Source of the DNA: Desulfitibacter sp. BRH_c19
Lineage (GTDB): Bacteria; Bacillota; DSM-16504; Desulfitibacterales; Desulfitibacteraceae
Reading direction: 5' to 3'
DNA: 53,722 nucleotides
Assembly: GCA_001515945.1 (NCBI GenBank)
Contig: LOER01000014.1
Coordinates: 1-53,722 of the forward strand
Each line of letters begins with the position of its first letter. The first letter of the stretch is position 1. Below are positions 13,392 through 32,163 of this stretch, piece after piece. The notes below the pieces were generated by a model. That model saw only the letters and a program-made list of their open reading frames with translations, searched no databases and had not been told where the DNA came from. Both the position numbers and the translations under genes were made by a program.

Positions 13392-13415
13392 ATTCAGAAC
13401 ATGGGAGGCAAAAAA

Positions 13416-13928
13416 GTGAGGTATAAGATATATATTTTTTTAATTATAATGATTTCGCTAATATTTTTAGTAGCTTGCAATGATACGACAAATAATAGTT
13501 TAATAAATAATGATGACCAAGGTGAAGCTAGTGGGGAGTTTATAAATCTAAGTCCTAAGGATTATGAACGTTACAATAGTGATGGTGAGTTAACTATGGG
13601 TATTATTTTTGCAGATCCCCTGGGAGAAGGTAAAGACGGATACCTTTCCTTTGTAGTGGCTATAGACAATCATAGTTACGATTTAAACGAGTATGATCTA
13701 AGTGATTATGCCACTTTAGTAAATGATAAGGGAGAAAGTCCAGAAGGCAAACCAAAATGGGAGTTATTTAGTGGTGGGGGACATCATGTGATTAACTATC
13801 TATTATTTCCTGATGACGGATTTATTACAGCTGATACTAAGTATATAAAATTAGTAATCAATGACTTTATAGACATTCCAGTACGAGAATTTGTATGGGA
13901 AAAAGAATTCTTAGGCATAAAGGAATAA
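13416..13928 (+). CDS. hypothetical lipoprotein
   Basis: 170 aa. The start is taken as GTG 13416, 7 bases after GGGAGG at 13403-13408; the in-frame ATG at 13401 lies on that ribosome site. The signal ends in a lipobox (FLVAC), predicting an extracytoplasmic lipid-anchored protein. The mature domain is acidic with an aromatic/Gly stretch (LFSGGGHHVINYLLFP) whose paired His could bind metal. It lies 6 bases upstream of ccdA. It may be an extracytoplasmic thiol or metal partner, but there is no CxxC. Family not recognised. Confidence 0.65.
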   Translation: MRYKIYIFLIIMISLIFLVACNDTTNNSLINNDDQGEASGEFINLSPKDYERYNSDGELTMGIIFADPLGEGKDGYLSFVVAIDNHSYDLNEYDLSDYATLVNDKGESPEGKPKWELFSGGGHHVINYLLFPDDGFITADTKYIKLVINDFIDIPVREFVWEKEFLGIKE

Positions 13929-13934
13929 CCTATA

Positions 13935-14672
13935 ATGTCAATATTTTTAATTGCCTTTTTAGCTGGAATAGTATCCTTTATCTCACCATGTATAATTCCC
14001 ATGCTGTCAGTATACTTTTCCATGATAACTGGACTTTCATTAAAGGAATTAAGGAGCCTGCCTAGTGGTGGCTCTTTAAGAAAATATGTTTTAGGTAATA
14101 CCCTTATGTTTGTTTTAGCTTTTACCATTGTTTTTACACTAGCTGGCGGAGCAGCGGGTGTACTAGCCAGCTTTCTAGCAAAGTATGGTAGATATTTTGA
14201 AGTGTTTGGTGGAACCCTAATAATTGTACTTGGTTTGAGCATGTTAGGGCTAATCAAGATTAAATTTTTAGATAAATGTAGAATGCCTGGGGAAGCTGAT
14301 GCTAAGAAAGGGTCAGGATATTTTTCATCCTTTGTAGTGGGATTGCTATTCGCCGTTGCTTGCTCCCACTGTATTGGACCAGTTTTATTCTCCATTTTAA
14401 TCATGGCAGGATCATTAGGATCAGCAACAAGCGGCATGCTAGTAATGTTTGTATTTTCTATAGGATTAGCTATCCCCTATTTGATAGCAGGTCTTTATAT
14501 GGATAAGATTATAAAGGTAATTCACAAAACCCATAGTTTTGCAAAAGGACTGAGTATAGTTGCAGGAGGTATTATTATTATACTAGGAATACTAATTCTG
14601 ACGGGAAATTTTGATATATTGACTATGTATACATCGAAATTAATACCGTTTAAGCTTCCTGTTGGAATGTAA
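13935..14672 (+). CDS. ccdA: CcdA-type thiol-disulfide transmembrane protein
   Basis: 245 aa with about six membrane segments. Two half-repeats each carry the essential membrane cysteine: FISPCIIPML in TM1 and VACSHCIGPVLF in the fourth segment. CcdA proteins carry reducing equivalents from cytoplasmic thioredoxin across the membrane to apo-cytochrome c or metal-handling thiol proteins. Its position between a lipoprotein and the copper operon, near a triheme cytochrome, fits either use. A terminator follows at 14705. Confidence 0.88.
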   Translation: MSIFLIAFLAGIVSFISPCIIPMLSVYFSMITGLSLKELRSLPSGGSLRKYVLGNTLMFVLAFTIVFTLAGGAAGVLASFLAKYGRYFEVFGGTLIIVLGLSMLGLIKIKFLDKCRMPGEADAKKGSGYFSSFVVGLLFAVACSHCIGPVLFSILIMAGSLGSATSGMLVMFVFSIGLAIPYLIAGLYMDKIIKVIHKTHSFAKGLSIVAGGIIIILGILILTGNFDILTMYTSKLIPFKLPVGM

Positions 14673-27234: not shown

Positions 27235-28386
27235 ATGAAAAAGCATCTGCATAAAGATACAGTGGTTGTTCATGGTAGCAAGGGAAGTGATCCGTATACA
27301 GGTTCTGTTAGCTTTCCAATATACCAAAGTGCTACTTTTAAGCATCCTGGACTTAATCAAACCACAGGTTATGATTATTCAAGAGAATTAAATCCTACTA
27401 GAGAAGAATTAGAGAAGACTATTGCAAAGCTAGAAAATGGTTTTGCTGGTTTTGCTTTTTCAAGTGGAATGGCAGCAGAAACAGCATTAATGGAATTATT
27501 TATTCCAGGTGATCATCTTATCGTGTCTGATGATATATATGGGGGTACATATAGATTTTTTGAGGAGATATGTGCTAAACGTGGGCTAGAGTTTTCTTAT
27601 GTAGACACGTGTTATCTTGACAATATAAAAAGTGCTTTTAAAATAAATACTAAGGCAATTTATATTGAGACACCTACAAATCCAATGATGAAGGTAGCAG
27701 ATATTAATAAGATATGTAGCTTTGCAAAAAGTAAAAAACTAATGACAATCGTTGATAATACATTTTTGACTCCCTACTTTCAAAGGCCAATAAATTTAGG
27801 TGCAGATATTGTTCTTCACAGCGGTACCAAGTATCTTGGCGGGCACAATGATACCCTGGCAGGTTTCCTGGTCGTTAATGATAAGGAACTAGCGCAGAGA
27901 TTATTTTTTATCCAAAAATCAACAGGAGCTGTGCTAGGTCCATTTGACAGTTGGCTAATGTTAAGGGGAATAAAGACCCTGGCAATAAGAATGGATAAAC
28001 AAGAAAAAAATGCATTACAAATTGCAAAGTGGTTACAATCCCAGAAGTGTTACCTTGATAAAGTGTATTATGTTGGACTTCCAGAACATGAAAGATATGA
28101 AATATCTAAAAAGCAAGCAAGTGGTTTTGGTGCAATGATTTCATTTAAGGTAAAAGATGTTGAGTACGTCGAAAAAATCCTGGATCGGGTTAAAGTTATT
28201 TCCTATGCTGAAAGTCTTGGGGGTGTAGAAAGCTTAATCACTTATCCTATTCTACAGACTCACGCAGCAATACCTAAACCTATCTTGGAAAGGTTAGGTG
28301 TAAATGATAGGCTTCTAAGACTTTCTGTGGGCATAGAAAATCCTGAAGATCTAATTAATGACCTAAAGCAGGCAATGGAGGGATAA
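27235..28386 (+). CDS. trans-sulfuration PLP enzyme 1 (cystathionine gamma-synthase/lyase family)
   Basis: 383 aa, Cys/Met metabolism PLP family. The PLP lysine is K199 in LHSGTKYLGGHND; also SSGMAAETAL, DNTFLTPYFQRP and the C-terminal ESLGGVESLI/RLSVGIE motifs. It handles cystathionine, cysteine or O-acetylhomoserine. AAAGGTGG precedes ATG 27235. The next gene begins 3 bases after its stop. Two tandem members suggest a split role, for instance one synthase and one lyase, as in Firmicutes methionine-to-cysteine conversion. Exact activity cannot be read. Confidence 0.85.
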   Translation: MKKHLHKDTVVVHGSKGSDPYTGSVSFPIYQSATFKHPGLNQTTGYDYSRELNPTREELEKTIAKLENGFAGFAFSSGMAAETALMELFIPGDHLIVSDDIYGGTYRFFEEICAKRGLEFSYVDTCYLDNIKSAFKINTKAIYIETPTNPMMKVADINKICSFAKSKKLMTIVDNTFLTPYFQRPINLGADIVLHSGTKYLGGHNDTLAGFLVVNDKELAQRLFFIQKSTGAVLGPFDSWLMLRGIKTLAIRMDKQEKNALQIAKWLQSQKCYLDKVYYVGLPEHERYEISKKQASGFGAMISFKVKDVEYVEKILDRVKVISYAESLGGVESLITYPILQTHAAIPKPILERLGVNDRLLRLSVGIENPEDLINDLKQAMEG

Positions 28387-28388
28387 TA

Positions 28389-29531
28389 TTGGAAAAGAAA
28401 TTTGGAACCAAATTAATCAATAATGGAAATGATAAATGTAAGTTAACTGGAGCTCTTAGTATTCCTATTTATCAAGCATCAACCTATCACCAAGAGGATA
28501 TTGATGACCCCTCTGAGTTTGATTATTCTAGGTCCGGAAATCCTACCAGAAAAGTTATCGAAGAAACCATAGCTTATTTGGAAGGGGCCGATAGGGGGTT
28601 TGCTTTTTCAAGCGGAATGGCAGCTACAGCCTCTGTGCTGTCAATTTTCTCCGCCGGAGATCATATAATTGCAAGTCAGGACATTTATGGAGGAACATTT
28701 AGGGTTAGCGGGAGCATTTTTAGTCGTTTTAATATAGATGTTAGCTTTATAGACACAACAGATATAGATGCGATAAGGAAAGAAATAAAAAGCAATACAA
28801 AGGCTATTTTTATTGAAACCCCTTCAAATCCATTGTTCAAAATAACAGATATAAAAAAAGTGGCTGAGTTAGCTAAGGAGCATGATCTTATAACTATAAT
28901 AGATAACACGTTCATGACCCCTTACCTACAACGGCCAATAGAACTAGGTATTGATATTATAGTTCATAGTGCAACAAAGTTTATAGGTGGACATAGTGAT
29001 GTATTAGGTGGGTTAGTTGCTGTTAAAGGAGAAAATCTAGCAAATAGAGTTTATTCTATCCAAAACAGTTTTGGAGCTGTTCTTGGGCCTTTGGATAGCT
29101 GGTTATTGTTAAGAGGTTTAAAAACGTTAAAGGTTAGACTGGATTATCAACAAAGTAGCACAATAAAGCTAGCCCGTTGGTTTAGAGAGCAACCAGAGAT
29201 AAAACAGGTATACTATCCAGGATTAGAAAATCACCAGGGCCATGCAGTTCATTTATCTCAGGCCGATGGACCAGGTGCTGTGTTCTCTTTTGAGACAGTT
29301 GACACCAAAACAGCGAGAAGGTTTTTAAAAAATACTCTACTTGCCGCAGTTGCCGTTAGTTTGGGAGGTGTAGAGACCATAGCTTCATATCCTTATAAAA
29401 TGTCCCATGGTGCAATGCCTAAAGAAACCAAGGAGAACCTGGGGATTAATGATAGGATAATTAGAGTATCAGTAGGACTAGAGGATTGTGAGGATTTGTT
29501 GGAGGATTTTAAAAATGCTTTAAGAGGATAA
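28389..29531 (+). CDS. trans-sulfuration PLP enzyme 2 (cystathionine gamma-synthase/lyase family)
   Basis: 380 aa, same family as the preceding gene. The PLP lysine is K197 in VHSATKFIGGHSD; SSGMAATASV, DNTFMTPYLQRP and SLGGVETIASYP are conserved. The start is TTG 28389, with GGAGGG embedded in the end of the upstream gene, so translation is coupled. The N-terminus (TKLINNGNDKCKLTGALSIP) differs most from its neighbour and lines the substrate entrance in this family, which fits different specificity. Confidence 0.85.
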   Translation: MEKKFGTKLINNGNDKCKLTGALSIPIYQASTYHQEDIDDPSEFDYSRSGNPTRKVIEETIAYLEGADRGFAFSSGMAATASVLSIFSAGDHIIASQDIYGGTFRVSGSIFSRFNIDVSFIDTTDIDAIRKEIKSNTKAIFIETPSNPLFKITDIKKVAELAKEHDLITIIDNTFMTPYLQRPIELGIDIIVHSATKFIGGHSDVLGGLVAVKGENLANRVYSIQNSFGAVLGPLDSWLLLRGLKTLKVRLDYQQSSTIKLARWFREQPEIKQVYYPGLENHQGHAVHLSQADGPGAVFSFETVDTKTARRFLKNTLLAAVAVSLGGVETIASYPYKMSHGAMPKETKENLGINDRIIRVSVGLEDCEDLLEDFKNALRG

Positions 29532-30627: not shown

Positions 30628-31083
30628 ATGAAATTTTCAACGCGTGCTAGATATGGTTTAAGGGCCATGGTTGAGTTGGCGATTAATTATAATCCTAATG
30701 AGCCTGTTCCCCTTAGTGATATTGCTGAAAAACAAGGCATATCAGAAGGTTACTTAGAACAATTAATGACATTCCTACGCAAGGGAGGTCTTGTAAGGAG
30801 TGTGAGGGGGTCTCAAGGAGGCTACATACTTAACAGAGAACCAAAAGATATTACTGCAGGAGATGTTGTTAGGTGTTTAGAAGGACCCCTTGCCCCCACT
30901 AATTGTGTTGCTGAAGAAGATTCCGAGATATGTGAGCGCGCTGGACTATGTGCCACAAAGGACTTATGGACAAGAATTAGAAATGCTATAGCAAGGGAAT
31001 TAGATACTACTTCTCTGGAAGATCTTCGGCAGGAGTTTCAAAAGCTGCAGGAATCGGGACAGGATTATTGTTATTATATTTGA
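30628..31083 (+). CDS. Rrf2-family transcriptional regulator (IscR/CymR type)
   Basis: 151 aa. Winged helix at the N-terminus (STRARYGLRAMVELA, ISEGYLEQLM, VRGSQGGYIL) and three cysteines C93, C102, C108 in the position where IscR binds an iron-sulfur cluster. CymR-type relatives lack these cysteines and sense cysteine through CysK. Here the cysteine set favours cluster or redox sensing, while the surrounding cysteine genes favour sulfur control. GGGAG precedes the ATG. It ends the larE-E1 cluster and is the candidate repressor for the palindrome at 26203. Confidence 0.87.
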   Translation: MKFSTRARYGLRAMVELAINYNPNEPVPLSDIAEKQGISEGYLEQLMTFLRKGGLVRSVRGSQGGYILNREPKDITAGDVVRCLEGPLAPTNCVAEEDSEICERAGLCATKDLWTRIRNAIARELDTTSLEDLRQEFQKLQESGQDYCYYI

Positions 31084-31122: not shown

Positions 31123-31197
31123 AAAAAAACACCCTTTACCCATGAGGATAAAGGGTGTATCTTGGATACCAAGATACAAGAGGTTGGATTTGTTAGT
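31123..31197 (-). ncRNA. small-RNA candidate, copy 2
   Basis: Minus strand: -10 TATAAT (31209-31204), hairpin GTATCTTGG/CCAAGATAC (31157-31177), terminator stem ACACCCTTTA/TAAAGGGTGT (31129-31158) and seven U. Stems are kept against copy 1 while the terminator base pairs change (adding ACA/TGT) and the loops differ, which supports RNA function. TTTGAACTTTTTGTGA at 31241-31256 is at the same distance from -10 as in copy 1. It is convergent with the Rrf2 gene and divergent from the selenoprotein candidate. Confidence 0.6.
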
Positions 31198-31410
31198 GCT
31201 CTTATTATAATGAAGTTTTGTGTACTACAGGTGACATAGCTTTGAACTTTTTGTGAATATTATTAATGTGACATACATTTTTAGGCTCATCTTAGATGTT
31301 AAATATAATACACATTCTCATCACATTTGTGTATTATAATAATTTCCTTGATAAAATCAACAGAACCATTTAAATGGATATTCCAACAAAAACCAGAAAG
31401 GAAGGTTTAT

Positions 31411-31875
31411 ATGGCTATAAAAAATTTAAAAGACAAAAAAAGCCAAACACTTATTCTATTATTAGTTGGAATAGTATTATTAGGCTTTTTGGGGACTTAT
31501 TTTTATAGGAACATCTTAGATGAAGATAACAAGCTTAACTTTTCTGAATTAATGGAGAATAATGGAAAGTATACTATAGTTTTTATATATACAGATCCTA
31601 CTCCAGAAAAAGTATGAATGCCATGTGAAGAAATGAAGCCCGTGATGGCTGAAATAAAAGAAGAATATGGTAATATTCTAAACTATGAGTATATTGAGGT
31701 AGAAGTAAACAAAGACGATCATAAAGTAAAGAAGTTTAAGGAAGCATTTGACGAAGGAATGCATCCAGCAACGTATATAATTAGCCCAGAAGGAGATTTA
31801 GTTAGAGGCTTTATAGGATTGACCCCCAAAATGATGCTTATTGAAGCTTTAGATGCCCTAGATTTAGAAGTATAG
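31411..31875 (+). CDS. membrane-anchored thioredoxin-fold protein, probable selenoprotein (UGA at 31615)
   Basis: Read through one in-frame TGA (31615-31617) the gene encodes 154 aa: an N-terminal anchor (TLILLLVGIVLLGFLGTYF), then a thioredoxin fold. The TGA is residue 69 in U-M-P-C, exactly where thioredoxins have CxxC, after strand YTIVFIYTD and before helix EEMKPVMAEIKEEY. The cis-Pro strand is present (HPATYIISPEG). AAAGGAAGG precedes ATG 31411. The second half has no ribosome site, and termination would leave half a fold. A short stem GCCAT/ATGGC (31620-31649) follows the UGA as a weak SECIS candidate. A TGT-to-TGA mutation (pseudogene) is the alternative. Confidence 0.72.
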
Positions 31876-32007: not shown

Positions 32008-32163
32008 CTAATGACAGCTCTTCTTTTCGTTGTGGTTGTTATTATCTTTTTGAGACTGATCGTGAGAATTGTTATGGCCTCCGCAGCAGCCTCCACCTCG
32101 CATCATCATATATAATATTCCTAAAATAAAAATTATTGGTAGATATTTACTTAACAATTCCAT
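32008..32163 (-). CDS. 51-aa membrane protein with CCGGH motif
   Basis: A short gene on the minus strand. The protein starts MELLSKYLPIIFILGILYMM, then MRGGGCCGGHN, and ends in a His/Asn/Lys-rich tail finishing CH. AGGAGG lies about 9 bases before the ATG, which is strong support. One membrane helix is followed by adjacent cysteines and five His residues, a likely metal or thiol site. Similar CCGG-motif small proteins accompany DUF2933-type genes. It lies downstream of the Lgt-like gene on the same strand. Function unknown. Confidence 0.7.
   Translation of the reverse strand: MELLSKYLPIIFILGILYMMMRGGGCCGGHNNSHDQSQKDNNNHNEKKSCH

Follow-up and report, generated by a model that had tools for sequence, protein, structure and literature searches.

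The gene at positions 31411-31875 encodes, with high confidence, a selenoprotein in which an in-frame UGA is read as selenocysteine (Sec, U) by way of a hairpin, and in which a membrane-held, probably outward-facing thioredoxin domain would use Sec69 and Cys72 as its redox pair. It lies in a stretch of 53,722 nucleotides of Desulfitibacter sp. BRH_c19 (the whole DNA analysed, hereafter the window), which makes up contig 14 of a genome of 3.85 Mb with a completeness rating of 100%. The gene structure, the conserved UGA, a family-wide hairpin, the selenocysteine machinery of the genome and the predicted fold were all observed. The protein represents a divergent, sparse, membrane-anchored branch of the known Sec-thioredoxin kind, for which no curated model was found. 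The elements of the gene are as follows.

31397-31405, plus strand: Shine-Dalgarno sequence AAAGGAAGG of ATG 31411, from the sequence and its duplex with the anti-Shine-Dalgarno (-13.7 kcal/mol)
31411-31875, plus strand: selenoprotein gene of 154 codons, membrane-anchored and thioredoxin-like, TGA read through (homologue alignment, AlphaFold fold)
31435-31515, plus strand: predicted transmembrane helix at the N-terminus, spanning about residues 9-35 and preceded by a Lys-rich start (Kyte-Doolittle 2.4 over residues 13-31; model helix 9-35)
31615-31617, plus strand: UGA codon for selenocysteine U69, which opens the U-M-P-C motif (17 relatives likewise have TGA here)
31624-31626, plus strand: Cys72, putative resolving Cys of UxxC, kept in all aligned members save L032
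31637-31650, plus strand: bacterial SECIS hairpin, AGCC (31637-31640), loop CGUGAU (31641-31646) and GGCU (31647-31650), the loop starting 23 nt after the UGA
31765-31767, plus strand: Pro119, putative cis-Pro preceded by His118 (invariant column in alignments)

Translated with TGA as U, the gene gives an uninterrupted protein of 154 residues with one in-frame TGA, in the context MAIKNLKDKKSQ...VFIYTDPTPEKVUMPCEEMKPVMAEI..., where U69 stands in V-U-M-P-C-E-E-M. The first-pass annotation had placed this TGA at the first Cys of a thioredoxin CxxC, and the translation bears this out. The frame stays open for 85 codons beyond the TGA. Among 1867 TGA triplets checked on both strands, only two lie in a frame open for at least 68 codons before and at least 84 after, the second being on the strand antisense to a large gene. 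ORF calling with table 11 splits the gene into 31327-31617 and 31618-31875; such standard calling cuts it in two and thereby renders the enzyme invisible. The same split, together with the ATG directly after the TGA, would suit two genes or a restart, namely a 68-residue membrane peptide and an 85-residue thioredoxin piece from ATG 31618, but this arrangement is very improbable. A strong Shine-Dalgarno sequence precedes the ATG at 31411 (-13.7 kcal/mol, against -9 to -13 for most other genes of the window), while the ATG at 31618 has almost none (-2.5 kcal/mol), so the earlier claim that no restart signal is present holds. The split would also fall inside the thioredoxin domain, with loss of the first strand and the catalytic residue. 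Moreover, relatives do not keep the ATG next to the TGA and have GGA, CAG, CCT and other codons in its place.

For relatives, 398 genomes of the phylum (Bacillota) were searched with the window protein, followed by a profile search. The protein search gave ten outside homologues, six of them with an in-frame TGA. U is aligned with the first Cys in these six (L024, L025, L029, L031, L032 and L033), and Cys occupies that position in L026, L027, L028 and L030. More homologues of both kinds were recovered by the profile search, and in total 17 relatives with TGA, spanning many families, and 15 with Cys at the U69 codon were compared. The alignment with homologues extends to either side of the TGA, and Cys of the Cys-containing members falls at the U69 position. 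A bacterial selenoprotein is marked by an in-frame UGA in a redox site that homologues fill with Cys, as is the case here. Conservation of the same UGA in at least two different sequences is a further criterion (PMC1088965), and here the UGA is kept in 17 relatives. The aligned Sec members show 14-29% identity with the window protein. On the tree, whose branches are long, the Sec label requires four changes and Sec is thus clustered. When public genome contigs were scanned with the window protein by itself, no relative turned up, and with the alignment as query one Bacillota MAG contig was the only find. Scans of viral contigs, plasmids and phages for relatives gave none. In two relatives, L031 (G350) and L032 (G211), U-T-S-K replaces U-x-x-C and the resolving Cys is absent.

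Most Sec members possess GGAGCC-CGUGAUNNN-GGCUCU or a closely similar hairpin, its apical loop starting 23 nt downstream of the UGA, and none of the 15 Cys members has a comparable hairpin. The best hairpin energies of Sec and Cys members were distinguished with a Mann-Whitney p of ~9e-7, a figure which is inflated by kinship. In the window gene, L024, L025, L031 and L032, the 3' arm is one codon earlier and the loop has 6 nt. The AGCC-CGUGAU-GGCU hairpin is identical in the window and L024, whose proteins are ~27% identical, and L025 has GCGGCC-CGUGAU-GGCCGC. In L031 (UGCUGCC-UGUAAU-GGCGGCA) and L032 (UGUUGCC-UGUAGU-GGCAGCA), the loop of the hairpin starts 20 nt after the UGA. In this small set of five short-loop members, the column pair 23-36 is AU, AU, GC, UG and UA and is always paired, the changes compensating each other, and 86.7% of cells pair as against 75.4% when shuffled. 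Origin of the short loop by codon deletion was considered and rejected, because the protein alignment is gapless there and the codons that build the 3' arm lie one step upstream.

Folding of 31618-31655, the interval singled out in the first-pass annotation, yielded a SECIS-like hairpin directly downstream of the UGA, with a G in its small apical loop. By free energy alone the hairpin of the window is modest and not separable from chance (folding z ~-1.5), and such tests carry no weight as proof here. When spacing was left free, 249 of 2764 background positions and 456 of 2000 synonymous recodings equalled it. At the 23-nt spacing such a hairpin is rare: across the genes of the window, only 6 of 8270 coding positions attain one. 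With the protein kept unchanged, 723 of 5000 synonymous recodings pass too, since a large share of the stem is already encoded by the P-V-M-A motif. This motif thus belongs to the signal and provides no independent test. The Rfam scan of the window gave no match at the gathering threshold.

The conservation of both codon and hairpin bears on whether the gene is a pseudogene or a sequencing error, in which a former Cys codon TGT or TGC was mutated or misread to TGA. The TGA is one base away from both codons, the two sister genomes of the genus have no counterpart at the threshold used, and L031 carries an additional in-frame TAA and may itself be a decaying pseudogene. Even so, such an origin is highly unlikely, as 17 relatives belonging to many families share the TGA at this codon, 85 codons of intact frame follow it and the hairpin is found in Sec but not in Cys members. 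Conservation largely refutes it. An error at 31615, which the first-pass annotation had named as fatal to its proposal, is very unlikely because the TGA is conserved in distant relatives.

The genome also contains the components on which the selenoprotein reading depends, and selA, selB, selC and selD were all found. selA (594.9 bits, cut-off 267.9), selB (386.5 bits, cut-off 242.25) and tRNA-Sec (selC, anticodon TCA; 76 bits, cut-off 47) are clustered within ~3.5 kb on contig 47. Two selD genes are present (375.6 and 370.3 bits, cut-off 125). With all four, the organism is able to make selenoproteins. Both selD genes (L020, contig 10:35446-36366; L021, contig 34:194322-195242) contain one in-frame TGA each, and the organism very probably has further selenoproteins besides 31411-31875. 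Reassignment of UGA to another residue (Trp, Gly or Cys) is extremely unlikely, with the open frame in its favour and nothing further found, as both selD genes use UGA at their Sec position, a tRNA-Sec (anticodon TCA) is encoded in the genome and adjacent genes read normally with table 11.

The selenoprotein is predicted to have a thioredoxin fold continuous around the TGA, as the first-pass annotation had proposed. The AlphaFold model, based on a 12-member alignment, has a mean pLDDT of 84.7 and is composed of a helix at residues 9-35 followed by the thioredoxin fold. This helix agrees with the membrane anchor claimed earlier, and one transmembrane helix is predicted. Residue 69 begins helix 2 (70-86), the redox motif thus being at the start of helix 2 and the invariant P119 at the putative cis-Pro position, as in the thioredoxin fold superfamily. 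The best PDB matches in Foldseek are thioredoxins (E 1e-7, probability 1.00). The curated cut-offs were missed for PF00085 (19.4 bits, gathering 23.5) and TIGR01068 (23.6 against 96.8 bits). No Pfam family was matched at E 0.001 and no NCBIfam model passes its own cut-off for the protein. Although thioredoxin-like in fold, it does not classify as TrxA.

Selenocysteine-containing thioredoxins of the UxxC type have been described before (PMC13188914, PMC9312934, PMC1794560), and selenocysteine thioredoxin (Trx, PF00085, UxxC) is listed as experimentally verified (PMC13188914, PMC9312934). Common to it and the window protein are the thioredoxin fold, the replacement of the first CxxC Cys by Sec and a bacterial SECIS directly downstream; the window protein has in addition an N-terminal membrane anchor and an insert before the motif. 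The 'thiol:disulfide interchange protein' (PF13098, UxxC) is a predicted selenoprotein (PMC13188914, PMC9312934); it is likewise Trx-like with UxxC, and 9 of 12 aligned relatives match PF13098, whereas the window protein has no Pfam match at E 0.001. Two other Sec-containing, Trx-like families differ in their model scores. For the HUIPC Trx-like (seleno)protein NF047660 the window protein reaches 16.7 bits against a cut-off of 105, and TsoB (NF045694), matched by some relatives, is absent among its matches.

ResA, StoA and TlpA are extracytoplasmic thiol reductases which combine a membrane anchor and a Trx domain with an x-P dipeptide between the redox residues. The window protein shares all three features, but Sec replaces Cys and the ResA model gives 19.9 bits against a cut-off of 170. 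Its N-terminal helix, UxxC, P77-V78 and the hairpin at 23 nt place it in a group of membrane-anchored UxxC Trx-like proteins of Bacillota. L043, L044, L049, L051, L054, L067, L068 and L072 are alike in having a single N-terminal helix, UxxC and the hairpin at 23 nt, and L029 and L033, grouped with them, have a fused membrane domain. Unlike the window protein, this other Bacillota group has no insert before U, has the SECIS 3' arm one codon later and has residues other than His before the conserved Pro. The window protein belongs to a small sub-branch with an insert before UxxC, His before the conserved Pro and a short SECIS loop. The insert, several residues long and placed between strand 1 and U, reads TDPTPEKV-U, SDPTPHHPDG-U, TTKPHPMPDGTLMY-U and VDENSDKPGK-U, and His precedes Pro119 in three of the four sub-branch members. 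In L029 (1459-2577) and L033 (1498-2682), the Sec-thioredoxin domain is fused to a C-terminal multi-pass part in one polypeptide with an in-frame TGA; on reading the sequence, this part resembles CcdA/DsbD. In L043 and L044, the same gene lies directly 3' of the Sec-thioredoxin, with a Cys motif at its start (SRCNVSCIFC / SRCNISCIFC) that resembles those of radical SAM proteins.

The selenoprotein gene is situated among sulfur and envelope genes, as noted in the first-pass annotation. Upstream in the same direction are genes for a LarE-like protein, two Cys/Met PLP enzymes, a ThiF-family protein and a CymR-like regulator, and lgt lies downstream on the other strand. The following genes of the window are relevant to function.

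13935-14672, plus strand: CcdA/DsbD transmembrane protein, possible electron supplier
27235-29531, plus strand: two Cys/Met-metabolism PLP enzymes (27235-28386, 28389-29531), best matches, in the same order, of the pair beside the homologue in G082
30628-31083, plus strand: Rrf2-type regulator, closest to CymR by profile matches and below that model's cut-off

In G082, the homologue (L034) follows two Cys/Met PLP enzymes which are 61% and 56% identical to the window pair. The homologues L035, L036 and L037 have other neighbours, the pair being found in one of four relatives examined, so the link to Cys/Met genes rests on one case. The genome encodes two CcdA-type proteins, one of them inside the window, where a lipoprotein without Pfam match is directly followed by the CcdA/DsbD protein (13401-14672). 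The lipoprotein gene (13401-13928) was considered as a possible thioredoxin partner and rejected, having no thioredoxin motif and no Pfam match. Between the selenoprotein gene and lgt, a minus-strand ORF of 51 residues (32008-32163) shows one hydrophobic segment, then GGGCCGGHNNSHD and an Asn/His-rich tail, and is possibly a small metal- or thiol-related membrane protein. At 31129-31158, also on the minus strand, is a terminator-like hairpin of 13 pairs with a T run; no gene on this strand obviously terminates immediately ahead of it.

For Sec insertion itself, topology, substrate, catalytic direction, electron donor and the Cys/Met link, we infer the following scheme. SelB with Sec-tRNA would read UGA 31615 as selenocysteine, guided by the hairpin 23 nt downstream. 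The thioredoxin-fold domain would be tethered by its one N-terminal helix and, by the positive-inside rule, face outward. Sec69 would act as attacking nucleophile and Cys72 as resolving residue; the selenolate would open a disulfide, or a similar oxidised sulfur group, of the substrate, and the selenenylsulfide would most likely be re-reduced via a CcdA/DsbD-type membrane carrier, so that disulfides outside the membrane are reduced. CcdA-like electron supply and reduction of outside disulfides appear most likely because of the L029 and L033 fusions, the two CcdA-type genes and what is generally known of ResA and DsbD. A more specific role is speculative and rather unlikely, namely that the proteins form a distinct sparse extracytoplasmic selenoprotein branch for sulfur amino acid redox, in which the helix-2 coding sequence and the SECIS shifted register together and L031 and L032 lost the resolving Cys. 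Under that reading, such proteins may, for example, reduce cystine-like disulfides or cell-surface thiols.

The branch is apparently undescribed so far, and with it the Bacillota selenoproteome gains an apparently undescribed membrane-anchored Sec reductase. The nearby Cys/Met enzyme pair gives a testable hint to its function. The branch also offers a natural case of a protein helix and an RNA hairpin within its coding sequence constraining each other.
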